42,442 bases of DNA. Origin: a virus. The notes under the pieces were generated by a model, which searched no databases, was not told the origin of the DNA, and saw only the letters and a list, made by a program, of their open reading frames with translations. Shown in pieces: positions 1 through 42,442 of the stretch. How positions within the stretch are numbered: position 1 is the stretch's first letter; every line of letters begins with the position of its first letter. The stretch spans positions 1 to 42,442 of the IMG/VR virus record IMGVR_UViG_3300009609_000033. One strand, 5' to 3'. The position numbers and the translations under genes are program-made.

Positions 1-111
1 ACCGTAACCGTCACCGGAACCGTAACCGTAACCGGAACCGGAACCGTAGCCGTAACCGTCACCGGAACCGTAGCCGTAACCGTCACCGGAACCGGAATCT
101 ATGTTTTCCAT
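1..111 (-). CDS. [S/Y/D]-G repeat micro-gene 4, 5' part (runs off the window edge)
   Basis: The start ATG lies at 111, preceded by TAAAGG about 10 nt upstream. Translation begins MENIDSGSGDGYG and continues as a strict alternation of Gly with Ser, Tyr or Asp up to position 1 without a stop. The continuation is almost certainly the piece at 42306-42442, which ends in TAA in the hexamer phase expected after joining the ends over their shared 8-mer. The joined protein would be roughly 80 residues of pure dipeptide repeat. The function is unknown. Such Gly-rich low-complexity chains may be disordered or adhesive, but that is inference. Confidence 0.6.
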   Translation of the reverse strand, partial: MENIDSGSGDGYGYGSGDGYGYGSGSGYGYGSGDGYG

Positions 112-128
112 ATAGGAACCTTTATTTT

Positions 129-416
129 TTAACCGGAACCGGAACTGGAACCGGAACCGGAACCGGAACCGGAACCGGAACCGTAACCGGAATCGTCACC
201 GTAACCGTAACCGGAACCGTCACCGGAACCGTAACCGGAACCGTAACCGTAACCGTAACCGGAACCGTAACCGGAACCGTAACCGGAACCGGAACCGGAA
301 CCGTAACCGTAACCGTAACCGTCACCGTCACCGTAACCGTAACCGGAACCGTCACCGTAACCGTAACCGTAACCGTAACCGGAATCGTCATCGGAACCGG
401 AATCTATGTTTTCCAT
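129..416 (-). CDS. [S/Y/D]-G repeat micro-gene 3 (95 aa)
   Basis: The protein starts MENIDSGSDDDSG and is otherwise a dipeptide repeat of Gly with Tyr, Ser or Asp, ending in a serine-rich SGSGSSSGSG. Codons are almost invariant: GGT for Gly, TAC for Tyr, TCC for Ser and GAC for Asp. The start ATG at 416 has AAAGG about 10 nt upstream, inside the linker shared by all copies. The downstream TAA at 129 is 15 nt before the next copy's ATG, so the genes are head-to-tail. There are no hydrophobic residues after the MENID cap, so no folded core is expected. Confidence 0.55.
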   Translation of the reverse strand: MENIDSGSDDDSGYGYGYGYGDGSGYGYGDGDGYGYGYGSGSGSGYGSGYGSGYGYGYGSGYGSGDGSGYGYGDDSGYGSGSGSGSGSGSSSGSG

Positions 417-433
417 ATAGGAACCTTTATTTT

Positions 434-475
434 TTAACCGGAACCGTCACCGTAACCGGAATCTATGTTTTCCAT
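434..475 (-). CDS. [S/Y/D]-G repeat micro-gene 2 (13 aa)
   Basis: This is a very short copy, MENIDSGYGDGSG then TAA, with the same ATG context and AAAGG as its 95-residue neighbour. It contains only four hexamer units, so it looks like a contracted (or seed) member of the same array. Whether the peptide accumulates is unknown. The initiation context is identical to that of the longer copies. Confidence 0.45.
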   Translation of the reverse strand: MENIDSGYGDGSG

Positions 476-492
476 ATAGGAACCTTTATTTT

Positions 493-708
493 TTAACCGT
501 AACCGTAACCGTCACCGGAACCGGAACCGTAACCGTAACCGGAACCGGAACCGGAATCGTCATCGGAACCGGAATCGGAATCGTAACCGTCATCGTAACC
601 GTAACCATAACCGGAACCGTCACCGTAACCGTAACCGGAACCGGAACCGTCACCGGAACCGTCACCGGAACCGGAACCGGAACCGGAACCGTAATCTATG
701 CTTTCCAC
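493..708 (-). CDS. [S/Y/D]-G repeat micro-gene 1 (71 aa, GTG start inside the DUF6948-like gene)
   Basis: Translation from GTG at 708 gives MESIDYGSGSG, then Gly alternating mainly with Ser, Tyr or Asp, with an Asp-rich patch in the middle. The start lies inside the last codons of the DUF6948-like gene (stop TAG at 696-698), in the minus-one frame. Its initiation sequence (GTGGAAAGCATAGAT) is homologous to the ATGGAAAACATAGAT of the other copies, so this junction looks like the ancestor of the array. Translational coupling is the simplest reading. A frameshift fusion to the upstream gene is the alternative. Confidence 0.5.
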   Translation of the reverse strand: MESIDYGSGSGSGSGDGSGDGSGSGYGYGDGSGYGYGYDDGYDSDSGSDDDSGSGSGYGYGSGSGDGYGYG

Positions 709-977
709 ACTGGCACCTCATTAATAGATTTTTCAGCTTGAGGAGTTATTTTAATAATTTCAATAACTCCCAATAGAACTATTTCGTCAACTGGGCAGGG
801 GAATTTGCATTCATTAGGTTTGCTAGTGCCTTCCATTGCTAATTGAGAAAGAGAAGCGGCACCCGCCCAATACCAAATTCGCCTAGCGTGTAGTAGTTCT
901 ATTTCATTACCGACCCTAGATTTGATAACACCGACAAAAACACCGGCATTTTGTGTTCTAATTAAGTGCATTTCCAT
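696..977 (-). CDS. DUF6948-like phage protein (93 aa)
   Basis: The sequence starts MEMHLIRTQNAGVFVG and contains RRIWYWAGAASLSQLA and a C-terminal VPVWKA. From memory this resembles the small phage family DUF6948, several members of which carry Gly-rich [S/Y/D]-G tails. No function is established for the family. Here the protein ends with TAG and the Gly-rich part is a separate overlapping frame. GAAGGG upstream of the ATG is a plausible ribosome site. The gene heads the repeat-gene string and lies downstream of a long non-coding leader. The family call rests on pattern recognition only. Confidence 0.6.
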   Translation of the reverse strand: MEMHLIRTQNAGVFVGVIKSRVGNEIELLHARRIWYWAGAASLSQLAMEGTSKPNECKFPCPVDEIVLLGVIEIIKITPQAEKSINEVPVWKA

Positions 978-3272: not shown

Positions 3273-3651
3273 GAGGTTTGTTGTGTCAGTATTGGGACAG
3301 TTAAGGATTGCAGTATTAGTTGAATTGAATTTTAATTTTAATCTTTGTTGTTTGAAGCATAGCTTCAATAAACCTTTTAGAGTAATACTCTAATTTAGGT
3401 CATGGGGGAGATATTGCTTCAATTTTTTGCGCATTTTTTCAAGTCTGACTTGATTCAATTTTTAATTGACTTTTTAACGTGAAACTGTAAGCGACCTAGG
3501 ACGGGTGAAGCACGGCTTTCAGTTTAGAAGTAAGGCTGTAGTGTTGCAGTGAGACTTCCAAAATGTGATTGTGACTTGAGACTCCCAGATTTTGGCGGGG
3601 AAGAACCCCAACACAATAAGGTCAATAGAAATTTTGAATAAAAATATTTTT
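3273..3651 (+). promoter_or_regulatory. Structured 5' leader of the rightward operon
   Basis: No gene is seen. The leader has small perfect hairpins: TTGAAGC-ATA-GCTTCAA (3352-3368), the palindrome 3377-3393 (TTAGAGTA-A-TACTCTAA), the palindrome 3439-3453 (TCAAGTC-T-GACTTGA), CCAAAAT/ATTTTGG (3558-3564/3589-3595) and GGGG-AAGAA-CCCC (3597-3609). The palindromes near the start could also be operators. Confidence 0.5.
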
Positions 3652-3731
3652 ATGAAAATAAGGTCAATAGAAATTTTGAATAAAAATATTTTTATGAAAA
3701 TAAGGCCAATAGAAATTTTGAATAAAAAATT
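3616..3731 (+). repeat. 42-bp tandem repeat, two full copies and a third diverging copy
   Basis: The unit beginning ATAAGGTCAATAGAAATTTT starts at 3616, 3658 and 3700, an exact 42-bp spacing. The third copy has GGCC for GGTC and is shortened so that its tail becomes the start region of the next gene: ATGAATAAAAATATTTTTA resembles the repeat's own TTGAATAAAAATATTTTTA. Each unit carries AATAAGG, a possible ribosome site. Being 14 codons long, the repeat keeps one frame open. Confidence 0.85.
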
Positions 3732-3735
3732 ATGA
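3652..3735 (+). CDS. 27-residue leader peptide made of the 42-bp repeat
   Basis: From the ATG at 3652 the repeat reads MKIRSIEILNKNIF, then MKIRPIEILNKKL, then TGA, which overlaps the ATG of the secreted-protein gene (ATGA). The downstream ATG has no ribosome site of its own nearby, so coupled translation through this leader is plausible. The leader itself also lacks an obvious ribosome site, so confidence is modest. Confidence 0.3.
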   Translation: MKIRSIEILNKNIFMKIRPIEILNKKL

Positions 3736-4214
3736 ATAAAAATATTTTTAATTTAGGTTTAAGTTTATTTTTATTACAAATAAATTGTTTCTTTCCAGTT
3801 AATGGTGCTAGAATGGGAGGTTGGGAAGGAGACCCAAAGGTAGAGATTGAAAAAAAAGGAGCCGATTGGTCTTTTTCTTCTGGTACTAATTTTGGTGGTG
3901 AAGCAGAAGTAGTTGGTAATGCTGATGGTTCTTATGCTTTTAAAGTTAAAAAATTTAGTAGTAACGCTGGTGATGTAACTAAAGAACAAGGTGATCGTGC
4001 ATTGAATGCTGGTTTAGTAGAAATGCATAAAATTCAAAGTGAAAGAGAAACTCACTTTTGGAATTTTGCAGAAAGGGTTGCTGAAGTAGCTCTTCCAATT
4101 TTATTGGCCCCAAAACCAATCCCTCCAGGCAATAATAATAATAACAATGGTGGTGAACCTGCATGGTTAAAGTGGATTATGTTGAATCTACCTGGTCCAC
4201 CACCACCGCAATAG
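3732..4214 (+). CDS. Predicted exported protein (160 aa)
   Basis: The N-terminus is a signal peptide: basic MNKN, hydrophobic LGLSLFLLQINCFFPV, then a likely cleavage near NGA at residue 26. The mature part is Gly-rich and mixed (a GGWEGD region), with a helical middle (residues 95-120). It has an Asn tract (six N in a row) and a proline-rich end (GPPPPQ). No enzyme motif was recognised. It is the first gene of the rightward operon, followed by other small envelope-type genes, so a role in the host envelope or lysis is possible. The start codon lies within diverged 42-bp repeat sequence. Confidence 0.65.
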   Translation: MNKNIFNLGLSLFLLQINCFFPVNGARMGGWEGDPKVEIEKKGADWSFSSGTNFGGEAEVVGNADGSYAFKVKKFSSNAGDVTKEQGDRALNAGLVEMHKIQSERETHFWNFAERVAEVALPILLAPKPIPPGNNNNNNGGEPAWLKWIMLNLPGPPPPQ

Positions 4215-5810: not shown

Positions 5811-6083
5811 ATGAATCCTATTGATTCTTTAATTAAAGAAGTAGAGACTCTTAGGACTAAATTAAAAGAGACTAGTTTAGATTTTGTCCCAACAAATGAT
5901 TTAATTACTGAATTACAGAATAGAACTAAAACTAGTATAATGATTTTTACTAGAATAGAACATGATAATCATACATTTACTTATATGTTCCATGAGGGTA
6001 GTTTAGGTGAAGTTATGGGTTTAGTTAATTATGCAGATTTAAGAATTAAAACTCGGTTAATAAAAGATTTTAGCACTGAATGA
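5811..6083 (+). CDS. Unrecognised small protein (90 aa)
   Basis: It lies between the two terminase genes and overlaps the large-subunit start by 4 nt (ATGA). The N-terminal third is a predicted coiled coil (IDSLIKEVETLRTKLKE). The rest is mixed alpha/beta (TSIMIFTRIEHDNHTFTYMF). The position suggests a packaging accessory protein, but nothing in the sequence proves it. Confidence 0.5.
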   Translation: MNPIDSLIKEVETLRTKLKETSLDFVPTNDLITELQNRTKTSIMIFTRIEHDNHTFTYMFHEGSLGEVMGLVNYADLRIKTRLIKDFSTE

Positions 6084-7645
6084 TATTGAATAGTGATCAA
6101 TTCGTCCAAGCAGTAAATGAGTTTAAGTCTCGTCAAGAACATCCTCTATATACATTTATCCCAACTAATAAACCTTTACATAACCAATTACAATTTTTAA
6201 AAGCAACTACTCGATACCGTTTGCTTTTCGGAGGGAATCAAAGTGGCAAAAGTATGTGTGCTTCCTATGACTTAGCTTGTTTTGCAACTGGTAAGCATCC
6301 TTATGTACCTATAGAAAAAATACCCAAAGGAACTATTAAGATATGGGTAATCTCTGCTGAGTATGTAACAATTAAAACTGGTATCTATAGGCATTTAAAA
6401 AGTTTTATACCAGAATGGGAAATACAAAAAGTAGGTCCAAATGTCCAGGGCCATATGCTCCCATCATTTTTAATTATTAAACGACATTCCTCTATGGAAA
6501 TTAAAGGAAAACCAGCATATGCTGAAATCAGTTTTATGTCGGCTAAGGGAGATCAGAGAGAGAAATTTCAAGCAGAAGCTGTTGACTTTTTCTACATTGA
6601 TGAAGAAATTGAAGAAAAGATTATTGAGGAACTCGAAGCTAGAACTTTAATTACTGGTGGTAGATTCACAATTTCAGCAACATTAGCTGAATCTTATGAT
6701 TGGATTTTAGAACTTGAAAGAAAAGGCGAAGAAGGCGATCCTGGTGTTTCCCTTACTAGATTATCTACTCAAGAAAATCCGTATGTTCATAAAGAGACAT
6801 TAGAGTTCTTTAAAAATAAATGGAGTGATGAAGCTCAAGAATACCGTATATTAGGTAAGTCTAAACGTAGTACTGGTTTAGTTTATAAAGATTTTGATGA
6901 CAATATCCATAGAGTTAATTCTTTTCCTATACCTAAAGAGTGGCCTAAGTTTTGTGCTATTGATCCTGGTATAAGAATATGTGCGGTCCTATGGATAGCT
7001 ATTGATCCAGGGGACCATGCGTATGCTTATAGAGAACTTTATTTTTCTAATGAACCTCTATATCGTATTGCAATGGAAATTAAAAAATGTGAACGATGGC
7101 ATTTTAATGAACACTTAAGTAGTATATTTAAACATTTTGTTTGGGAAGAAACTGATGATAGTGAAATAATTGTTACTCGTGTTATTGATGATAAAAAGAA
7201 TAGTCGATTAATTACTGGTGACCAAGGGGTAATGGATCAGTTAGCAAGTAAGTATGGTATTATGTCTGTACCTGCTGATAAATCTATGGCTCCAGGGTTA
7301 GAAGATGTTAGATTCTGGTTACAAAATAAAGCTGACAATAAACCAGGATTTATGGTCTTTGACCATTTAATTAATTTTTATAATGAATTAAAATCTTATC
7401 GTATTAGAGATAAAGCTTATCGTAAAAACCAAAATGATCCTGTTGATATTCCTATTAAAAAGAGAGATCACTTAATGGACTGTTGGCGTTATTTAGCTAG
7501 GGAGAATCCTAAATACTCAGATAGAATAAATACTCCTGGTTATATAGCAAATAATGTTAAGAAAACTTCTGAGTTAATCCGGGAAAGGAAAGAGAGAAAA
7601 GAATATGAACGATCAGAAATTGCTCAACTCCTTGGTGATTGGTAA
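6080..7645 (+). CDS. terL: Large terminase subunit (521 aa)
   Basis: This is the ATP-driven DNA packaging motor and headful/end nuclease. Walker A is GGNQSGKS (residues 51-58) and Walker B is FFYIDEE (170-176) with the catalytic Glu. The C-terminal RNase H-fold nuclease shows AIDPG (Asp 295), a second acidic cluster around 370-381 (VIDDK, TGDQG) and a third at KRDHLMD (461-467). The length is normal. It starts by overlapping the previous stop (ATGA) and is overlapped at its end by the next gene. The packaging mode cannot be read directly, since the contig ends lie in repeats. Confidence 0.93.
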   Translation: MILNSDQFVQAVNEFKSRQEHPLYTFIPTNKPLHNQLQFLKATTRYRLLFGGNQSGKSMCASYDLACFATGKHPYVPIEKIPKGTIKIWVISAEYVTIKTGIYRHLKSFIPEWEIQKVGPNVQGHMLPSFLIIKRHSSMEIKGKPAYAEISFMSAKGDQREKFQAEAVDFFYIDEEIEEKIIEELEARTLITGGRFTISATLAESYDWILELERKGEEGDPGVSLTRLSTQENPYVHKETLEFFKNKWSDEAQEYRILGKSKRSTGLVYKDFDDNIHRVNSFPIPKEWPKFCAIDPGIRICAVLWIAIDPGDHAYAYRELYFSNEPLYRIAMEIKKCERWHFNEHLSSIFKHFVWEETDDSEIIVTRVIDDKKNSRLITGDQGVMDQLASKYGIMSVPADKSMAPGLEDVRFWLQNKADNKPGFMVFDHLINFYNELKSYRIRDKAYRKNQNDPVDIPIKKRDHLMDCWRYLARENPKYSDRINTPGYIANNVKKTSELIRERKERKEYERSEIAQLLGDW

Positions 7646-7847
7646 ACGAGTATTATTTAATTATGGTGAACGATATGTTCCAGCTATAATTGAAGAAATA
7701 TTTGCTGAAAATATCTATGGAGTAAGCTATCTAATCCGTGGCGAGTGGAATTACGTCCAAGCTGTGTATGGAAAAGATACATATACTATTAAGGATTATC
7801 CAAAAGAATATACTTCAATGGGACCAGCTAAAGTAGGTGCTTTATGA
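7605..7847 (+). CDS. Unrecognised small protein (80 aa)
   Basis: It overlaps the end of terL by 41 nt in another frame, with a purine-rich ribosome region (GGAAAGAGAGAAAAG) before the ATG. The sequence (KRVLFNYGERYVPAIIEEIF...VSYLIRGEWNYVQAVYG) looks like a small beta-barrel (SH3/KOW-like) of the kind that binds nucleic acid or protein. The function is unknown. Its 3' end overlaps the glycosyltransferase-like gene by 4 nt. Confidence 0.55.
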   Translation: MNDQKLLNSLVIGKRVLFNYGERYVPAIIEEIFAENIYGVSYLIRGEWNYVQAVYGKDTYTIKDYPKEYTSMGPAKVGAL

Positions 7848-8629
7848 AAAAGCCTGAAATAGTAGTATGTGTCTGTTCGCTTGGATTATATAAAAAAGAT
7901 AATATTATATCTTTATTTAATATTATTCCTAAATTAAGTGGTGGTATTTTAATTACTGAATGTTCATTACTTCCTATGTCTCGTAACTATACTATTAGAC
8001 ATGCACTAAGAATTCATCCTGATCTTACTCATATTTTATTTGTAGATGATGATATGTGTAATTTTGATACATGGCATATTGAGAAATTAGTAGAACAAGA
8101 TAAAGATATTATTTCTGCATTTATGACTATGAGGAACCCTCCTTATGCAGTTGTATCTGCTTTTGAAGATAATACCAAAATTATTGAATATTTAAATAAT
8201 AAAGAAACTGTTGGAGTCCATCATACTGGTATGGCTTTTACTTTAATTAAACGTGAAGTAATTGATGCTTTAGCTGAACAGACTTCTGAAGGTCCAATTT
8301 GGTTTACAATGGACCGACCACCACGAAATAGTTTTAATGATGAAATAGAAGAGTTTGTTAATACTAATTTAAATAGACCTAATAAAAATATAGAAAATTT
8401 AGTTAGAGATGCTATAGCTTTTGGTCAAACTTCTAATTTAGGCTCTGATATTATTGGTGAAGATATTCAATTTTGTCATAAAGCTAGAATGTTGGATTTT
8501 AAAGTTTATGTTAATTGTGAAGTTATTATTGGGCATCTTGGTAATGTAGCTCATGATATTAATACTCAAATAGAATATAAACAAATTCAGAGTATTAAAA
8601 AAGGTGAGAAAGTACTGGTGGATGTATGA
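7844..8629 (+). CDS. GT-A-type glycosyltransferase-like protein (261 aa)
   Basis: The N-terminal Rossmann-like half starts EIVVCVCSLG. It contains MSRNYTIRHAL, as seen in phage nucleotide-sugar transferases, and the FVDDDM motif (residues 66-71) in place of a DXD metal/sugar site. A later GEDIQFCHKARM fits the acidic acceptor-side motif of the GT-A fold. The likely reaction is transfer of a sugar from a nucleotide sugar to an unknown acceptor (phage DNA, a virion protein or the host surface). It sits between terminase and portal genes with ATGA overlaps on both sides. Confidence 0.65.
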   Translation: MKKPEIVVCVCSLGLYKKDNIISLFNIIPKLSGGILITECSLLPMSRNYTIRHALRIHPDLTHILFVDDDMCNFDTWHIEKLVEQDKDIISAFMTMRNPPYAVVSAFEDNTKIIEYLNNKETVGVHHTGMAFTLIKREVIDALAEQTSEGPIWFTMDRPPRNSFNDEIEEFVNTNLNRPNKNIENLVRDAIAFGQTSNLGSDIIGEDIQFCHKARMLDFKVYVNCEVIIGHLGNVAHDINTQIEYKQIQSIKKGEKVLVDV

Positions 8630-8904
8630 CCAGTACTGAAATAGTTTTACTTGGTTTATTGCTTCTTTTGGTATGTATTTTTGCTATTGCATTAAATGTA
8701 TTTACTAAAGAACTTTTTAGATTATTAAATCAATATGCTGATTTATCAGTTCAATTAATGAATAGAATTTCTGATATACATTCTCAAATACAATTAAATT
8801 ATAGAGAAAATCATAATCATAGAACCCCAACAATAGAGGATACATTAGAAAAAGAAGAAGAAGAACAGTATAATTATCCTGAAGTAACTGGCGGACAGCT
8901 ATGA
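8626..8904 (+). CDS. Membrane-anchored coiled-coil protein (92 aa)
   Basis: One N-terminal transmembrane helix (residues 5-25, IVLLGLLLLLVCIFAIALNV) is followed by a helical segment (LFRLLNQYADLSVQLMNRISDIHSQI). The tail is acidic and polar (EDTLEKEEEEQ). The architecture resembles inner-membrane spanin or small virion membrane proteins. It lies just upstream of the portal, with 4-nt overlaps to both neighbours. The function is unassigned. Confidence 0.5.
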   Translation: MTSTEIVLLGLLLLLVCIFAIALNVFTKELFRLLNQYADLSVQLMNRISDIHSQIQLNYRENHNHRTPTIEDTLEKEEEEQYNYPEVTGGQL

Positions 8905-10868
8905 ATTTATTTGAAATGAAAAAGGGCAAGAAGCCCTCTATCATTGATTTTGTTAATAATAAGTTCATGGCTAACCGAGCTAACATGAACATGATGTATC
9001 GTTCATGGATGTTGAATTTAGCTTGGATTCGTGGTTATCAAAATGTTGATTATGATTATGTAAATAAAACTTTTATTAAAAATAAACGCGATCCTTGGAG
9101 ACCACGTTTAATTTCTAATTTAATGTTACCATTGGTTCGTAAATTAATTGCGAACTTAACATATATCCATCCTATATGGGATGTTATACCTGCTACTTCT
9201 GATGAAGAAGATATTCAGATTTCTAATGTATCTACTAAAATTGCTAGATATATTTGGGAACATACTGATATGTCTCTTAAGTTAGTTAGACTTTTGGGCT
9301 GGCAGTGTGCTTGTGGTAATGCTTTTTTTAAGGTTGGTTGGGATGCTACTGTTGGTGATGAAATTGAAATTGAAGCTAAACATTTAGAACAAGAATTATT
9401 ACAACAAGTAATGGAAATGATGGGTATTGGACAGACACCTGAAAAAATTAAAGTTAATGAAGGTGATGTGTTCATTGAACCAATATCTCCATTTAATGTA
9501 ATCTTTGATGATGTATCTGTAGTTCAAGATTCTGATTGGATTATTGAATCTAATATTAGAAGTCTTGATTGGGTTACTGAAAAGTTTGGTAATAAATATA
9601 AAGGCTTACCACAAACTGATGAGCATTCAATTTTAATTTTTCCAGCTATTTATAATGATAATCAGAAACCAAGTGGTTCTAGAAAAGGTGTATTAGTTCA
9701 TGAATTATTTATTAAACGAAAATCTAAAATGTTCCCAAAGGGATTACATGCAATCATTGCTGGTGGTGAACATGTTATTACACCACAGGATAATCCTTTT
9801 GAACATGGACAAATTCCTTATTCTCACTTTTTAGAAATTTATGATCCTAGTTCTCTTTGGGGAACTAGTATTGCTGAACAAGTTCGACCAAATCAAGCTG
9901 AGTATAATAAGATTCGTTCTGGTGTAATTGAACAAGTCAATATGATGAGTCAATTACAATGGTTGAATCCTAAGCAAAGTGAAGTTACTGAATTTACTAA
10001 TAAACCTGGACAAGTTTATAATTATAAATATCCATATAAACCTGAACAACAACAACCAAAACCATTACCAGCATATATTGAACGATCATTAGATCGTATT
10101 AGAATGGATATTCAGGATACTGCTAGTAGCCATGATGTATCTGAGGGTAAGAATGCTCCTGGAGTTAGGGCTGGTAAAACTGTTTTGGCTTTGCAAGATG
10201 CAGATGATTCGGTAATTGGACCAGTATTATTGTGGTTTGATGACCGATTGTCATATACAGGTAGATTAGCATTACAAACTTTTTCACAGTTTACAACTGC
10301 TGAAAAAGTATTAAATATTACTGGTGATTTTAATCAATTAGAAACTATTAATTTTATTGGTTCAATGGTTAAAGGTAAAAATAAAGGTGATTATTTTAAT
10401 GTTCGTGTAAAAACTTATGGACGCCAAATGATGTCTCGATCTGGTCGAGAGAGTTTGGCGTCAATGTTAATTCAAAATCAAGTATTAAATCCTGTAACTG
10501 ATAAAGAAAAAATTCTTCGTATTTTAGGAACTGCTGATTTAATTAGTGTATATGATGAGAATGCTGCTGATGTTACTAGACAATATAAAGAAATTGAAGA
10601 TATGATTACTGGTCAACCAGTTCCTGTTACTCTTGGTCAAAATCATGTGGTACATAAAGATACTATTAAAAAATATATTTCTTCAAGTAAATGGGATAAA
10701 TTACAACCTGAACAAAAACAAATTGTTATTCAACATTTACAAGCTCATATGCAACAAGAAGTACAAGAAGCTGTATTCCCACAATTATATAGTAGTCAGT
10801 TAATAGCAATGACACAACCACAACCGCCCCCCACCACAGGGGGTAGTAGTGGAGGGAGTAAACAATAA
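8901..10868 (+). CDS. Portal protein (655 aa)
   Basis: The portal forms the dodecameric head vertex through which DNA is packaged and ejected. The sequence has the long portal layout: an N-terminal wing with conserved aromatics (RSWMLNLAWIRGYQNV), then a section reading NPFEHGQIPYSHFLEIYDPS and LWGTSIAEQVRPNQAEYNK (about residues 292-340), typical of podovirus-type portals, followed by stem/clip and a long C-terminal helical barrel ending in a Gln/Pro/Gly-rich tail. It follows terL closely and precedes the scaffold and capsid genes. The start overlaps the preceding stop. Confidence 0.85.
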   Translation: MNLFEMKKGKKPSIIDFVNNKFMANRANMNMMYRSWMLNLAWIRGYQNVDYDYVNKTFIKNKRDPWRPRLISNLMLPLVRKLIANLTYIHPIWDVIPATSDEEDIQISNVSTKIARYIWEHTDMSLKLVRLLGWQCACGNAFFKVGWDATVGDEIEIEAKHLEQELLQQVMEMMGIGQTPEKIKVNEGDVFIEPISPFNVIFDDVSVVQDSDWIIESNIRSLDWVTEKFGNKYKGLPQTDEHSILIFPAIYNDNQKPSGSRKGVLVHELFIKRKSKMFPKGLHAIIAGGEHVITPQDNPFEHGQIPYSHFLEIYDPSSLWGTSIAEQVRPNQAEYNKIRSGVIEQVNMMSQLQWLNPKQSEVTEFTNKPGQVYNYKYPYKPEQQQPKPLPAYIERSLDRIRMDIQDTASSHDVSEGKNAPGVRAGKTVLALQDADDSVIGPVLLWFDDRLSYTGRLALQTFSQFTTAEKVLNITGDFNQLETINFIGSMVKGKNKGDYFNVRVKTYGRQMMSRSGRESLASMLIQNQVLNPVTDKEKILRILGTADLISVYDENAADVTRQYKEIEDMITGQPVPVTLGQNHVVHKDTIKKYISSSKWDKLQPEQKQIVIQHLQAHMQQEVQEAVFPQLYSSQLIAMTQPQPPPTTGGSSGGSKQ

Positions 10869-11551
10869 TGGCAGAAGAAACAACTGGTGCTGTGGCAACG
10901 CCACCAGCACCAACGGAAACACCCCCCGCTAATGCGGGGAATAGTACACCTACTCCAGAAGGTGAAGTGTTTATACCTTTACAAGTAGATGATGAAGTTT
11001 TTAATTTAAAACCCAGAGAATACCAGCAGTTAGCTGAATTCGGTTATCGAGCATTAAAAGAAAAATCTAATCCTAAACCTGATACTTCTGTTACAAATAA
11101 TGAACCTAAAGAACCTACTGTTGCTGAATTACAAGCTGAATTTAGAGAATTACAAAATGGTTTAAAACATAAAGAAGAATTAGGTAATATTTATAATGAA
11201 CTTAATCGTGTTTCCCAATCTAATGAATTAACTAAGACTAATGAAAAATTACATCAAAGTATTTCTGTTGAAACTTTAGCTAAAGTTAATTTCAATCCAC
11301 GATTGAATGTTGCTGATACTTATAATGCTGTTTTAAAAGAACGATTAGATTTATTAAATAGTCTGAAAAATGATGGTAATGATCGTGATAATGCTAGAAC
11401 AAAAGCTAATGCTTTAGTTAATGGTTCTATTCGTGGTGGTGGTAATCAATCTATTATTGATGCCTCAAAGAAATTTTCTCCAGAAGACATCCGTAGTGGT
11501 GCTTCAAAGCGAGCGTTAGAAGATTTTCTTAGGAAAGTTTCTGTAGATTAA
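10868..11551 (+). CDS. Probable capsid scaffold protein (227 aa)
   Basis: It lies directly between the portal and major capsid genes. It has a Pro/Thr/Ala-rich N-terminus (residues 1-35), a segment EVFIPLQVDDEVFNLKPREYQQLAEFG, then a long charged helical part (VAELQAEFRELQNGLKHKEELGNIYNELN) and a basic C-terminus (PEDIRSGASKRALEDFLRKV) suited to binding the capsid shell. Acidic helical proteins at this place are usually scaffolds. A GC-rich 6-bp hairpin (CCCCGC-TAAT-GCGGGG) lies near codon 20. The start is TAATG-coupled to the portal. Confidence 0.6.
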   Translation: MAEETTGAVATPPAPTETPPANAGNSTPTPEGEVFIPLQVDDEVFNLKPREYQQLAEFGYRALKEKSNPKPDTSVTNNEPKEPTVAELQAEFRELQNGLKHKEELGNIYNELNRVSQSNELTKTNEKLHQSISVETLAKVNFNPRLNVADTYNAVLKERLDLLNSLKNDGNDRDNARTKANALVNGSIRGGGNQSIIDASKKFSPEDIRSGASKRALEDFLRKVSVD

Positions 11552-11563
11552 ATAGGAGTTACA

Positions 11564-12931
11564 ATGCCTGGATTAGCTGCACCTGATTTTGCTAATGCAA
11601 TGAAGACCTATTATTTAGGTCCATTAAATCAACAAGTTGCTAAAGCTACTGTTTTATTAGATCGTTTACAAAAAAATTCTGAATATGTTTCTGGTAACTT
11701 TTCATATATTCCATTAATTTCTGGACGAAATCCTGGTGTTGGTTCCCGTCAAGATGCTAGTGGTTCTGGACCGACTTTACCTGATTCTGGTCGTCAAGGC
11801 TATAATAAGGCAACTTTTCCAATGACCTATCATTATGGTCGTGGTCAAGTTTCTGGTCCTGTGATGAGGGCCTCTAAGAATCAACAAGGTGCTTTTGCTC
11901 AAGCCTTGGATGTTGAAATGCAAGGTTTGATGGAATCGTTGCCGGAAGATTTAAACCGACAACTTTGGTCTTATGGGCATGGTCGTACTGGTACTTTAGC
12001 TGTTAATGGTGGTTCTACTTCGACTACATTTTCACTTTCATCTGCTTCATTTTTTAATGCAAAGATTGGTGATCGTGTTCACTTTGCCACTATTGCTGCT
12101 GGTGCTTCTCCTGCTCCATCAGTAGGAACTACTATTACTGCTATTACTCGTGATTCTACTTCTACTCTACATGTTATTACTTTAGCTGCTGCCCCTGGTC
12201 GTGCTGTAACCGCTGGGACTGATACATTATATTATGGTTCTAAGGCTGCTGGTATTACTGTAGATATTGATACTTCTCGTGCTAATGAAATGTATGGTAT
12301 TCCTGCTGCTATTTCTGGTGAAAATAATTTAGCTAATGAAGAAGCTATCCCTGTTGCTGGTACTGTTCCTGTTGCTGATGAATTTGTGAATGGTGCATTA
12401 CAGTTTGGTGCTATTGATCGTACTACTAATGCCTTTTGGAAATCTCAGTGGTTACAGAATCCTGTTGCTGCTGGAACTAATCGTCCATTGACTAATGCTG
12501 TTATGCAACATGCTTATTTATCTGCTGTTAATATTGGTGGTGCTAATCCAAAAAATATTGAAGTTTATACTAATCCAGGTATTTGGATGACTCTTGGTTT
12601 ACTTCATATTGGTGATCGCCGATATTCTGATTATCAAGAGACTCTTGAAGCTGGTTGGGTTTTCTTAAAATATAATGGTATTAAAGTATTTTATGATCGT
12701 GATGCTATTCGTGATGTTATGTTCTGGATTGATATGACTACTCTTCTTTTACTTAGTCAATCTGAATATGAATTAATGGATGAAGATGGTAAGGTATTAA
12801 ATCGAGTTGTTGATCGTGATGCTTATGAATTTACTCTTTATAAGGATATTCAATTAGGTGCTAAGAATTGTGCTAAGAATGTTCGTTTAGATGATATTCA
12901 GTCTGCTGCTAATATTGAGGCTACTGTCTAA
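11564..12931 (+). CDS. Major capsid protein (455 aa)
   Basis: The main shell protein is inferred from gene order (portal, scaffold, this), length and the strongest ribosome site of the region (TAGGAG, 8 nt before the ATG). The N-terminus (MPGLAAPDFANAMKTYYLGP) and the following SGNFSYIPLISGRNPG, HYGRGQVSGPVM and LDVEMQGLMESLPEDLNRQLW resemble capsid proteins of podovirus-like phages with an HK97 fold. Residues 160-220 are Ser/Thr/Ala-rich and may be an inserted surface domain. Codon use is rich in GGT, GCT and ACT, consistent with high expression. Confidence 0.8.
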   Translation: MPGLAAPDFANAMKTYYLGPLNQQVAKATVLLDRLQKNSEYVSGNFSYIPLISGRNPGVGSRQDASGSGPTLPDSGRQGYNKATFPMTYHYGRGQVSGPVMRASKNQQGAFAQALDVEMQGLMESLPEDLNRQLWSYGHGRTGTLAVNGGSTSTTFSLSSASFFNAKIGDRVHFATIAAGASPAPSVGTTITAITRDSTSTLHVITLAAAPGRAVTAGTDTLYYGSKAAGITVDIDTSRANEMYGIPAAISGENNLANEEAIPVAGTVPVADEFVNGALQFGAIDRTTNAFWKSQWLQNPVAAGTNRPLTNAVMQHAYLSAVNIGGANPKNIEVYTNPGIWMTLGLLHIGDRRYSDYQETLEAGWVFLKYNGIKVFYDRDAIRDVMFWIDMTTLLLLSQSEYELMDEDGKVLNRVVDRDAYEFTLYKDIQLGAKNCAKNVRLDDIQSAANIEATV

Positions 12932-13563
12932 TGATTAATGATCATCAAATAGAATGGATTAGGTGTAGAAAGTATTATAGTGTCTTTGAGTTACATAACT
13001 TAGCAGAAGCAGCTGGAGTTTTAAGAGCGAGTGCAGATGCTACACAACTTCCTACAATTTTAAGTGCTGCTAATGGTTTAGCTGGTTTGGCACTTGCTAC
13101 TGGTGATAACTATGATTCTGCTATTAATATTCCTTATGATTTAGACCCACAATATCCTGTTGGATTTAGGTGGTTTTATACTGCTGAAGTTACTGCTGAT
13201 GCTACATTAACTACTGTTATATTAACAATGTTAGCTAATGTTCGATTATTAAATGCTCAATTATTAGTTGCGTCTACTGCTCTTGATACTGTATTAGGTA
13301 CACAGACTTATGGGCCTTCTACTGCTGGTGTTTTAGATAATCAATTATCTAGAACTTCTCGTGGCATTAGAACTACTCTAGCTATGAGTCGAGCACAAAT
13401 TGAAGCTGGTGCAATGTTAGTTATGCGTTTAACACCATCTTCATTTGTTAATATTGTTGCTGCTTCATTAATTATTTTAGGGCTTGAAATTGATTATTGC
13501 CCTATTCGTTGTGTTGGTTTTGGTAAAGAAACTGATGCCCCGTTGGCTTCTGCTGGATTCTGA
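12931..13563 (+). CDS. Unrecognised virion-region protein, paralog A1 (210 aa)
   Basis: It follows the capsid gene with a TAATG overlap. The start (MINDHQIEWIRCRKYYSVFELH) and end (LIILGLEIDYCPIRCVGFGKE) match those of the next gene, so the two are tandem duplicates. The pattern is beta-strand-rich, with a hydrophobic core (TLTTVILTMLANVRLLNAQLL). A capsid decoration or head-associated role is likely from position; no domain was recognised. Confidence 0.65.
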   Translation: MINDHQIEWIRCRKYYSVFELHNLAEAAGVLRASADATQLPTILSAANGLAGLALATGDNYDSAINIPYDLDPQYPVGFRWFYTAEVTADATLTTVILTMLANVRLLNAQLLVASTALDTVLGTQTYGPSTAGVLDNQLSRTSRGIRTTLAMSRAQIEAGAMLVMRLTPSSFVNIVAASLIILGLEIDYCPIRCVGFGKETDAPLASAGF

Positions 13564-13566
13564 TTT

Positions 13567-14229
13567 ATGATTAAGGATTATCAAATAATGTGGCGGAGAC
13601 AGTGTAAATTTTATTCACCTTTAGAACTTAGTTCATTTTATCCCATTGCAATTAATGAAGGTGGGGCTGGTACTTATGGTGCTGGCCGAATAATGCAAAA
13701 TGTTTCTGAATCAACTATTCATTATAGTTCTGTTAATGCTGGGTATTGTGGTGCTCAGTTTACTGATTTGGATAAACCTTTATTAGGTATCCTTCAATTA
13801 CCTAGACATGTTGATACTAATTTTCCTATTAGATTAAAAGTTAATTGGACTGGTAATAATTCAGGTGCTATTACAACTGGTGTTCTTTGGACTGTATTAT
13901 ATGATTTAATCAAAAAAGATGTAGCTATTAATAATGCACCTAGTACTCCTTTATCAACTCCTATTGTGGCTTCTTTGGGGAATTTACCTTGGTCCTATAG
14001 TTGGAGTGATTATGGGGTTATTAGTAATCTGGGATTGACTAATCAAGAATTAGATGATGGGGCTAATTTAGTTGTTCAAATTAATAATACTTTAGTTGAT
14101 GCTAATATTAGTAGTTTAATTTTCTTAGGTATTGAAATAGATTATCTGCCTATTATGTGTTTACTTGAATCTGATTTTATTGCTGGTCGTGGTGAAAAAT
14201 ATGATCCCGCTTTCGTGGGGCCATCATGA
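13567..14229 (+). CDS. Unrecognised virion-region protein, paralog A2 (220 aa)
   Basis: This is a paralog of the preceding gene: MIKDYQIMWRRQCKFYSPLEL at the start and LIFLGIEIDYLPIMCLLESD near the end align with it, while the middle differs. It is beta-rich with Asn/Gly loops. A CCCGC-TTTC-GTGGG hairpin (with one G.U pair) falls in its last codons, and the stop overlaps the next ATG. The duplicates may be decoration proteins or head fibres with different binding faces; this is inference. Confidence 0.65.
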   Translation: MIKDYQIMWRRQCKFYSPLELSSFYPIAINEGGAGTYGAGRIMQNVSESTIHYSSVNAGYCGAQFTDLDKPLLGILQLPRHVDTNFPIRLKVNWTGNNSGAITTGVLWTVLYDLIKKDVAINNAPSTPLSTPIVASLGNLPWSYSWSDYGVISNLGLTNQELDDGANLVVQINNTLVDANISSLIFLGIEIDYLPIMCLLESDFIAGRGEKYDPAFVGPS

Positions 14230-14762
14230 TTATAACAGAAGAAAAACGAGCAGAGTTATATAAATTTAATCTTAAAGATTGTTTACCTGAAAGTATTCAA
14301 ACTGTTCTTACTAGATATGATAAAGATTTAACTGCTCTATGGAATGAAGACGATACTCAGTGGGAATTTTATCGAATTAAAAATAAAGGTATAACTAAAT
14401 CTGAAGATTTATTACATTGGCAAATTTCTGCCCCTACTAAAAGTAAATTAATTACTGTTGGTATTATTGATTGGTTAAAAAAATATGATACTAATTATCA
14501 AGGATATCTATCACAAGATCAAATGAAAAATAATTGGAAAAGACAATTTAGAAAAACTGCTTCTAAATCAAAAGAAGATCATAATAAAGCTATTGAGGAT
14601 ATTAAGTATGGTTGGAAGGATGGTAGCCATAAGTTTGGTACTAATAGGGTACAAATTAGTGTCCCTATTACAATCGGTATTAATCAAAAAACAGGGAAGA
14701 AAGTCTATGCCGTGAAAAAGAAAAGAGAGTTATTAATAGATGGCAACATCAATACTGTTTAA
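14226..14762 (+). CDS. Unrecognised protein (178 aa)
   Basis: It is charged, with many Lys, Trp and Tyr. It shows MIITEEKRAELYKFNLKDCLP, a central HWQISAPTKSKLITVGIIDWLKKYD, and a basic C-terminal half (MKNNWKRQFRKTASKSKEDH, then KKVYAVKKKRELL). The position among virion genes suggests a minor structural or head-completion protein. It overlaps the next gene by 23 nt. Confidence 0.6.
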   Translation: MIITEEKRAELYKFNLKDCLPESIQTVLTRYDKDLTALWNEDDTQWEFYRIKNKGITKSEDLLHWQISAPTKSKLITVGIIDWLKKYDTNYQGYLSQDQMKNNWKRQFRKTASKSKEDHNKAIEDIKYGWKDGSHKFGTNRVQISVPITIGINQKTGKKVYAVKKKRELLIDGNINTV

Positions 14763-15303
14763 ACCTGAGTTAGGTTTACCATTAAATCCTGGTGGTGAAT
14801 CTCCCATACAGAATGCTGCTATGGGAGAAGATGGTCATTTATGGAAAATTTATAGAGTAGCAGCAGATGGTGTTATTCCTACTGGTCTTGTAACTTTAGC
14901 TGATGGTACTGGATTTTATAGTGATAATCCAAGTGATAACACTGATGGTTCTATTGATGTCTCTAATTGTAGTGGTGTTAGTTTTGCTATTAATGCCCAT
15001 TTAGTTGCTCTTACTTTTGTAGATATTATATTAAAATTTTGTGATCGTGCTGGTCAATTTGATTTTTGGCAAACAATTTTCGATGGTGCTCTTGTTGGTT
15101 CTGATTATATTTATACTCCTAGATTATCTTTTTATAGAATATTAGCTGCTAATACAGATGAAGACCTTATATTTAGTGTTCCTGTTCCTAATGCTAAGTT
15201 TATGAGAATATTTATTCAAGGTTCTGGTGTTAATACAAATTCAAATATAGTTATAAAATTTGCTAGAGGGTGGCTCGATAATTTAGGAGTATTTACGGTA
15301 TGA
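14740..15303 (+). CDS. Minor virion protein candidate, paralog B1 (187 aa)
   Basis: It begins MATSILFKPELGLPLNPGG and contains GEDGHLWKIYR, DIILKFCDRAG and PNAKFMRIFIQGSG; all these blocks recur in the next gene. It is predicted beta-sandwich-like. Gene position between capsid and tail adaptor, and duplication, suggest a surface-exposed head or tail protein. The function is unknown. Confidence 0.65.
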   Translation: MATSILFKPELGLPLNPGGESPIQNAAMGEDGHLWKIYRVAADGVIPTGLVTLADGTGFYSDNPSDNTDGSIDVSNCSGVSFAINAHLVALTFVDIILKFCDRAGQFDFWQTIFDGALVGSDYIYTPRLSFYRILAANTDEDLIFSVPVPNAKFMRIFIQGSGVNTNSNIVIKFARGWLDNLGVFTV

Positions 15304-15884
15304 CAATATTATTTAAACCTGAATTAGGGCTACCTATGAATCCTGGTGGTAATGCCTGTATTCAGAATGCTGCATTAGGTGAAGAAGGTCATCAATGGAA
15401 AATTTATAGACATATAACTAGCGGTGATTTTGATGATGCTCCTGGTATTGCTGTAGATGATGTTTTATTTACAACTGAAGGATTTATTGAAGGTGAAGAA
15501 TCTGATGGTGCTGGATTAATTGATGTTTCTAATGTGGCTTCAGTTAGTTTGGCTGTACTTGTTAATTATGCTGGTTATACTGATATAGATATTATTTTAA
15601 AATTTTGTGACCTTACACAACCTGCTCCATTTGTAGAGTATCAACAGACTGCTTTAGTTAGAACTATTACAACTAATGTTCAGCTGGATGTTAGACCAGT
15701 TATTATTAGAATGCCTATAAGTTTAGATAATATGCCTATTATTTTTACTGTTCCTGTTTATAATGCTAAGTTTATGAGAATTTTTATTAATGGTAATGCC
15801 CCTGGCACCCCTGATCCTGGACGTTATGCTATTATTTTAGTTGGACGTGGCTGGCAACATGGTTCTGGAATAATATCTGTATAA
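15300..15884 (+). CDS. Minor virion protein candidate, paralog B2 (194 aa)
   Basis: This is a duplicate of the preceding gene: ILFKPELGLPMNPGG, GEEGHQWKIYR, DIILKFCDL and YNAKFMRIFINGN are shared, with an insertion in the middle (residues 60-80). It starts by ATGA-type overlap with B1. The pair parallels the A1/A2 duplication just upstream, so this segment has expanded by tandem copying. Confidence 0.65.
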   Translation: MTILFKPELGLPMNPGGNACIQNAALGEEGHQWKIYRHITSGDFDDAPGIAVDDVLFTTEGFIEGEESDGAGLIDVSNVASVSLAVLVNYAGYTDIDIILKFCDLTQPAPFVEYQQTALVRTITTNVQLDVRPVIIRMPISLDNMPIIFTVPVYNAKFMRIFINGNAPGTPDPGRYAIILVGRGWQHGSGIISV

Positions 15885-42012: not shown

Positions 42013-42273
42013 TTATTCTTTTTTAGCAAAATATTCTTTCAAAATTTCAGATTCCTTTTCTCGAAACCATTCACGGATTTGTTTATAGCTAGTTGCACTA
42101 CCAAAGACCCGTACAGCTTCACTGGCAATTTTATTTATTAAATTGTCAGAGACATTATAAGTATTTGTCAGTCGCTCTAGATTCATTATGATGAGTCGAA
42201 GATTACGTTGGTGCTGAAAATCACTATATATCTTTCTTTTTAAGAAAAACCAATGATTATGTCTATCTAACAT
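42013..42273 (-). CDS. Unrecognised small protein after the repeat genes (86 aa)
   Basis: It begins MLDRHNHWFFLKRKIYSDFQ just downstream of the last linker of the repeat array (AAAGG lies about 25 nt upstream, rather far). An internal Met (MNLERLTNTYNVSDNLINKI, start 42186) gives a compact 57-residue helical protein with ATSYKQIREWFREKE. It ends before the terminator/promoter palindrome. No family was recognised; it is co-transcribed with the [S/Y/D]-G genes if the window is circular. Confidence 0.5.
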   Translation of the reverse strand: MLDRHNHWFFLKRKIYSDFQHQRNLRLIIMNLERLTNTYNVSDNLINKIASEAVRVFGSATSYKQIREWFREKESEILKEYFAKKE

Positions 42274-42284
42274 AAAGTTTTCAA

Positions 42285-42442
42285 CCGGATAGGAACCTTT
42301 ATTTTTTAACCGTAACCGTAACCGTCACCGGAACCATAACCGGAACCGGAACCGTAACCGGAACCGTAACCGTAACCGTAACCGGAACCGTAACCGTAAC
42401 CGTCACCGGAACCGTCACCGGAACCGTCACCGGAACCGTAAC
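42285..42442. repeat. Hexanucleotide repeat array (right contig end)
   Basis: These are the same CCGTAA/CCGGAA/CCGTCA units as at the left end. They are preceded by one copy of the linker ATAGGAACCTTTATTTTTTA (42290-42309). The last eight bases, ACCGTAAC, equal the first eight of the window. Joining with that overlap (or a 2-bp overlap) keeps the hexamer phase, while simple concatenation does not. Confidence 0.85.
42306..42442 (-). CDS. [S/Y/D]-G repeat micro-gene 4, 3' part
   Basis: This is an open repeat frame on the minus strand ending GGT TAC GGT TAC GGT TAA at 42306. It has the same codon set as the copies at the left end: GGT, TCC, TAC and GAC, with one GGT TAT. It is followed by the same AT-rich linker with AAAGG that separates the other copies (42285-42307). 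The 5' part must lie across the contig edge, at 1-111. Confidence 0.55.
   Translation of the reverse strand, partial: YGSGDGSGDGSGDGYGYGSGYGYGYGSGYGSGSGYGSGDGYGYG

Follow-up and report, generated by a model that had tools for sequence, protein, structure and literature searches.

A DUF6948 gene and an overlapping Ser/Tyr/Asp-Gly repeat gene as a candidate two-gene phage module

The locus analysed here raises the question of why a phage should carry a row of small genes made almost entirely of six-base units, and whether such genes act on their own or as part of a larger system. The window, by which we mean the whole 42,442-nucleotide stretch of DNA under analysis, carries, on the minus strand of positions 1-708, four frames in a head-to-tail row (71, 13, 95 and approximately 80 amino acids), in which nearly all residues fall into SG, YG or DG pairs (hereafter XG). 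This arrangement, sizes included, had been proposed in a first-pass annotation and is confirmed in the sequence, with identical linkers between the frames. The reading that we favor, at a probability of roughly 0.45, is that of a two-gene phage module, in which a DUF6948 barrel would be accompanied by a low-complexity XG partner coded by composition. The features of the locus are as follows.

696..977, minus strand: DUF6948 gene, first of the pair, 93 aa (Pfam PF22253, E 3.8e-29)
689..718, minus strand: overlap junction, DUF6948 end E-V-P-V-W-K-A-stop with GAGG, then GTG(G) of XG cistron 1
493..708, minus strand: XG cistron 1, 71 aa, GTG start, VESIDYGSGSG...
456..495, minus strand: linker 1, cistron 1 stop, AAAGG, ATGGAAAACATAGATTCCGG
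434..475, minus strand: XG cistron 2, 13 aa, MENIDSGYGDGSG
397..436, minus strand: linker 2, same as linker 1 over the shared 20-mer and 30-mer
129..416, minus strand: XG cistron 3, 95 aa
92..131, minus strand: linker 3, same as linkers 1 and 2 over the shared 20-mer and 30-mer
1..111, minus strand: N-terminal part of XG cistron 4, 37 aa, running off the contig
42306..42442, minus strand: C-terminal part of an XG cistron, 44 aa and stop
42289..42308, minus strand: last linker copy, truncated; stop, AAAGGTTCCTAT, without ATGGAAAACATAG
42013..42273, minus strand: next gene 3′ of the array, 86 aa, no Pfam match; start about 15 nt past the truncated linker

In the three complete cistrons the in-frame units are TCCGGT (35), TACGGT (27), GACGGT (10) and ten others. 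The claim that the copies consist only of SG, YG and DG units holds for nearly all pairs and fails for a minority, such as SDDDSG, YDDGYDSDSG and SSSG. With TRF, a 6/12-bp array (scores 445/492) spans 1-694 and recurs at 42307-42442, and a linker period of 59 bp is found at 376-520; the GC content of the array is 0.535 versus 0.327 for the window. No family in PHROGs, NCBIfam or Pfam was matched by the XG frames. The C-terminal piece at the far end of the window is probably cistron 4 continued across an assembly break in the repeat. Cistron 4 would measure about 79-80 aa if the 8-base overlap of the contig ends, ACCGTAAC, were the true join, which so short a match inside a hexamer array leaves unproven.

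The gene upstream of the array passes the PF22253 gathering score with 101.1 bits (cut-off 27), and the two genes share sequence. The last codons of DUF6948 are GAG GTG CCA GTG TGG AAA GCA TAG; shifted by one frame, XG cistron 1 opens there with GTG GAA AGC ATA GAT. A single start shared by all copies, as first described, is therefore found at the linkers and not in cistron 1, which begins with GTG (VESID) inside the DUF6948 gene. Every cistron does possess a predicted initiation signal of its own, as had been suggested, in the form of a start codon and an SD-like AAAGG or GAGG from which translation may be expected.

The linkers connect the later cistrons to this same junction. A 20-mer, TAAAAAATAAAGGTTCCTAT, lies at 112-131, 417-436 and 476-495, and once more at 42289-42308, where the linker is cut short after it. 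The junction part of linker 1 (30 nt, 456-485) agrees with the 3′ end of DUF6948 at 24 of 30 positions, the next best place on the same strand giving 18 of 30. The linker thus repeats the DUF6948 3′ end in degenerate form, and duplication took in the chain cistron along with the start of its translation. A search of IMG/VR for the exact linker gave 0 matches, so the window's linker is its own. The proposal that amplification occurs at two levels, hexamer and whole cassette, gains weight from at least ten other contigs that carry two to five XG cistrons (a script flagged 25 of 94, some flags being other-frame readings, and ten were accepted by eye). There are up to five in L013 and L091, four or more in L108 and L110, several in L024, and two each in L050, L064, L071, L097 and L112; in L050, L071 and L091 the stretch 5′ of a later start likewise repeats the end of DUF6948.

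The chain genes had been regarded as free-standing tail genes. They are instead the second gene of a near-obligate pair with DUF6948, judging from 94 other IMG/VR contigs, all distinct, that comprise 29 loci and the best 80 of 567 DUF6948 relatives (15 contigs in both) and that, as near relatives of the query, are not independent. An XG frame starts within -40 to +120 nt of the DUF6948 stop in 91 of the 94; the exceptions (L014, L018, L076) hold degenerate Gly-rich frames farther downstream. As a control, strict XG frames in the same 94 loci number 129 downstream of DUF6948 and 13 elsewhere, some of the 13 being antisense shadows or degenerate kin. A reverse scan, blind to DUF6948, employed a 51-base degenerate repeat DNA pattern and returned at least 120 stretches. 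Among the matches listed, 100 of 120 accompany DUF6948 or a relative: DUF6948 itself stands upstream on the same strand in 89, and a divergent DUF6948-like gene in 11 (nine of a divergent type and two wider-profile matches, the A3/A4 profiles having been built from eight of the loci they searched). Another 18 have less than 600 nt upstream, and two (L174, L232) are without DUF6948. The divergent type bears the motif IVVLDRGFVYVGxV...NIRxWGTTKGLGxLA and aligns with the DUF6948 profile at an hhalign probability of 86.8 (E 4.3e-6, two Pfam-DUF6948 members left out). The first-pass annotation had also pointed to DUF6948 proteins with Gly-rich tails; no in-frame fusion was seen in the 94 contigs, where the Gly-rich "tail" occupies the overlapping frame. 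A DNA-level search of E. coli genomes for two DUF6948 genes found none, which at that level says little.

The overlap itself bears a mark of coding. The chain gene starts over the C-terminal Trp codon of DUF6948 in 79 of 94 contigs (ATGG in 70, GTGG in 9); five others have an ATGA-type overlap, seven start at another place, and three lack a start by our criterion. In 65 of 84 cases A is the third base of the V/I codon before that Trp, versus 221 of the 1055 other V/I codons in the gene stretches (odds ratio 12.9; p 1e-25, a value too small given that the rows are related). Because an A at this position creates ATG, codon choice in DUF6948 keeps the start of the chain gene. An SD-like 4-base match lies upstream of the start in 50 of 79, as a raw count without shuffle control. 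A programmed frameshift in place of a new start was considered and set aside as less probable, since the sole shared feature of the overlap is the [A/G]TGG start.

What the chain gene conserves is best seen in 104 arrays with 3480 pairs, where X is S in 35.2%, Y in 26.7%, D in 22.9%, F in 3.0% and N in 2.8%. F, N, H and C are one step from S/Y/D codons yet rare at X, and the chains are for the most part free of Lys and Arg. The Gly slot is 96.0% Gly, and its one-step variants are 215 synonymous to 106 non-synonymous, against an unweighted neutral expectation of 3:6. The S/Y/D percentages are 35/28/22 where X codons end in C and are followed by GGC (53 arrays), 33/25/25 for T with GGC (27 arrays), 35/31/26 for C with GGT (11 arrays) and 37/30/25 for C with GGG (6 arrays); two small codon styles (3 arrays each) are off this ratio, and some contigs extend X beyond S/Y/D (V, E and A in L022; L and W in L019). 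Codon style changes at least 28 times by parsimony on a DUF6948 tree of 93 rows, most forks of which are unresolved. The order of X is near random with weak biases (z from -3.3, at lag 1, to 4.6, at lag 2). Since S:Y:D is alike in the common codon styles, it is the protein that is under selection, and we read these sequence patterns as selection on composition and on X-Gly alternation, not on order.

These observations bear on two readings in which the protein would be incidental. According to the first, the hexamer array works as DNA, be it for attachment, as an origin or for recombination, with the open frame as a by-product. Such a view is in print for Iodobacter phage PhiPLPE, whose (KMGCCG)35 at 46,046-46,255 was described as a DNA repeat and speculated to be a novel attachment site (PMC3391216); it was the only printed view found. 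That repeat likewise follows a DUF6948 gene and reads as an XG frame, and the available text of PMC3391216 makes no mention of coding capacity or of a DUF6948 link. Arrays do lie near recombination genes, with XerD annotated beside one. The codon evidence is a poor fit, however: the hexamers vary between phages (TCC/TAC/GAC or TCT/TAT/GAT with GGC, GGT or GGG) while the encoded S/Y/D stays constant, the biased codon choice keeps a start codon, and Gly slots vary mostly synonymously, all of which makes a DNA site quite improbable. The second reading, a selfish or passively tolerated microsatellite whose slippage after DUF6948 yields a harmless, unselected frame, would account for near-random order and varying lengths. 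It would also account for third bases that are homogenised within arrays (for Y, 19 minority versus 910 majority), as slippage would do. A tolerated repeat would hardly follow nearly every sampled DUF6948, hold S:Y:D alike across the common codon styles with the easy neighbors F, N, H and C kept rare, or impose a codon-level constraint on a start codon, and we rate it only slightly above the DNA site.

The carriers allow the turnover of the array to be followed in isolates. They include the Pectobacterium phages Taid, Ymer, Abuela, Amona, Koroua, Pappous and Sabo, Dickeya phage Setonix, PhiPLPE, Vibrio phage IKEMa6-1, Chlorobiaceae phage CV-1-33 and a circular spring-water phage, together with two complete Neisseria gonorrhoeae chromosomes of three DUF6948-XG copies each (L140, L143 and L145 in NZ_CP119142.1; L141, L142 and L144 in NZ_CP119140.1). 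Both chromosomes are typed as plasmids in PLSDB, and the DUF6948-XG copies are unannotated in that table. Eight related cultured phages share a common start, MSKLIKPE[K/R]YG, and a near-identical end, between which chains of 53-89 aa differ in unit order; the Ymer and Abuela chains are alike. In Ymer, Abuela and Amona, DUF6948 and 600 nt on each side are 100% identical, and Amona has 33 hexamers versus 36, although exact array lengths in this genus are doubtful because its genomes are short-read assemblies (PMC11445585, available text). Gonococcal chains measure 95-97 aa, differ between some copies and between strains, and add Asn to S/Y/D. Near-identical metagenome pairs vary (e.g., L027/L028), some of those contigs ending in the array, and other close pairs share identical arrays (e.g., L094/L099, L111/L120/L125). 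The earlier expectation of length polymorphism in a hypervariable series is thus borne out, both length and order differing among related isolates and prophage copies.

The chain gene is accordingly an in-frame tandem repeat of a 6-bp unit whose copy number varies between close relatives. It is not a perfect repeat of one unit, being built from three interchangeable units in near-random order. A phase-variable microsatellite gene was rejected, since a 6-bp unit is divisible by 3 and slippage keeps the frame. The mechanism of variation, a coding tandem repeat, is of a known kind.

An assembly artefact had been named at the outset as a possible refutation. It is correct insofar as this contig, like 18 of the 94 relatives, breaks off inside the array, and the short-read Ymer-genus assemblies counsel the same caution over lengths. 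It fails in kind, because intact frames recur in cultured phages, in a circular phage record and in the two complete gonococcal chromosomes; we consider it the least probable of the explanations weighed here.

The chain also occurs fused to other protein. A fused form is found in two human-gut phage scaffolds and a Monoglobus plasmid, and in L037, L039, L041, L126-L129 and L139 the chain is N-terminal to a conserved folded domain. This domain of approximately 150 aa (FAHGxTLxEA...WHHxLTGSC; L126:3001-3459, L127, L128, L129, L037, L139) is modelled at pLDDT 92.1, matches no Pfam family above cut-off and has no counterpart among PDB folds (best E 0.24). A second fused architecture occurs in L191, where the XG chain is followed by another C-terminal region, whose one match, to DUF7666, falls below threshold (E 0.034).

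The genomic surroundings suggest where the pair may act. Among 30 neighboring proteins of at least 140 aa, picked by size and position, 16 match PHROGs of DNA, RNA or nucleotide metabolism (RecE, RecT, Erf, SSB, Gp2.5, primase, helicase, polymerase), and a virion part is the best match of none. In the window the pair precedes ParB-like, methyltransferase, SNF2-type helicase, PolA and DUF5906 genes on the same strand, with structural genes on the opposite strand; a distant DNA search of phage records with window positions 6080-12931 gave no match. Upstream of DUF6948 lie inverted repeats at 1005-1050, 1075-1122 and 1558-1617 (20 nt at 95%, 21 nt at 81% and 18 nt at 94%), which are possible regulatory or terminator structures. 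A 42-bp direct repeat at 3615-3740, AT-rich and with internal palindromes, has two perfect copies and one of 83% directly 5′ of the plus-strand structural operon. Within the structural region, 12931-14229 and 14740-15884 hold two pairs of adjoining apparent paralogues, the MINDHQIEW/MIKDYQIMW and FKPELGLPLNPGG/FKPELGLPMNPGG proteins.

Two further readings accept a selected chain and assign it another role. It could be a structural filament or glue, a silk-like beta-sheet in a virion or adhesin, and not a soluble partner of DUF6948. Alternation of Gly with S/Y recalls the GX repeats of silk fibroin, and the pair adjoins tail genes in the Pectobacterium phages. With Asp at about one quarter of X, however, the chain should be acidic and soluble, and elsewhere its neighbors serve replication and recombination, with no structural best match in the 30 scanned; a filament is therefore unlikely, if less so than the other rivals. 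Alternatively, a variable decoy or counter-defence protein might escape or titrate a host factor by fast change of order and length. The turnover of arrays between fixed flanks would suit such a role, as would the replication and recombination genes around the pair. Yet composition is kept where order is not, and the same three units offer little new surface; in PADLOC neither DUF6948 nor the C-terminal domain of fused chains had a match, a negative of small weight. A decoy seems to us about as improbable as a tolerated microsatellite.

The favored module of barrel and chain draws its first component from a structural model. The AlphaFold2 model of DUF6948 has a pLDDT of 97.7. The best PDB rows in Foldseek are Sm/LSm or spliceosomal entries, and also 3by7 (best E 0.044, prob 0.99); the spliceosomal chains are read as Sm proteins from their entry titles. 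VIA gives a best Z of 6.7, in the range below 8 where the tool warns of common arrangements, with an rmsd of 2.2 over 65 residues at 12% identity. No N-terminal Sm helix is seen in the 90 residues modelled, and hmmsearch of DUF6948 (A1) against PDB sequences found 0 matches at E up to 1. The resemblance of the modelled barrel to the Sm/LSm fold is moderate and suggestive. Relatives in BFVD carry the DUF6948 name, and no paper using that word was found in the open-licence literature.

How might the two genes work together? The first, DUF6948, would make a small beta-barrel protein of Sm/LSm-like fold. The second, starting inside the end of the first in the -1 frame, is probably translated in coupling with it, as anatomy and codon evidence suggest, and would produce a chain in which Gly alternates with Ser, Tyr or Asp, these three in a near-constant ratio. 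Its gene would grow, shrink and reshuffle in 6-bp steps; as such steps cannot break the frame, order may drift fast while amino-acid composition is held by selection. Here, as in at least ten other phages, tandem duplication has also taken in the complete chain cistron, start signal included. The product would be a soluble, acidic, tyrosine-studded low-complexity polymer, and linkage, composition and barrel resemblance make it a candidate multivalent assembly partner that would engage DUF6948 through composition. In the early phase of infection, barrel and chain might then organise work on nucleic acids. Translation, Sm-like assembly, physical partnership and an early role of the pair are all points that we infer.

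A bolder version pictures an Sm-like barrel, widespread in phages, with a trans-encoded "tail", a hypervariable random SG/YG/DG copolymer in which composition and length carry the meaning, multiplied in some phages by whole cistrons and building an RNA/DNA-protein condensate or scaffold in early infection. We hold this version as doubtful. As to the favored module itself, the strict Gly alternation is more than a composition-only disordered polymer needs, and may reflect silk-like beta-sheet structure or just the hexamer origin. The fused form with its folded C-terminal domain means that a linker role of the chain fits equally.

Several known systems offer parallels. Eukaryotic Sm/LSm proteins bear Gly-rich low-complexity tails, and the DUF6948 model resembles their barrel; here, by contrast, the chain is a separate overlapping cistron, and RNA binding and a ring are putative. 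Silk fibroin has GX repeats in which Gly alternates with Ser/Tyr, and FUS-like domains have a Tyr/Ser/Gly composition. The XG chain shares these traits and differs in being Asp-rich, short and phage-encoded, a likeness for which no homology is claimed. In Borg elements, also mobile, fast-evolving in-frame repeats make disordered protein stretches whose homologues share composition (PMC9879509, available text). The Borg repeats are perfect and lie inside varied, often extracellular or membrane proteins, whereas the two-residue XG unit makes up a whole small cistron with one partner gene and near-random order. The available text of a survey of prokaryotic low-complexity regions does not name an XG family (PMC6821194), and no description of a barrel and X-Gly pair was found in open-licence papers. 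The DUF6948 name, low-complexity repeats and one instance of the repeat, in print as DNA, were already known; the DUF6948-XG pair is what we regard as new as a gene system.

Hundreds of phage contigs (one scan gave 567 DUF6948 relatives; the pair was checked in 94) and cultured phages carry a near-obligate pair that appears to have escaped description, the probable reason being a second gene of low complexity that breaks assemblies. The pair gives DUF6948 a candidate partner and a testable context. It also constitutes a natural experiment on proteins selected for composition and not for sequence, with the Ymer-genus isolates as close variants.
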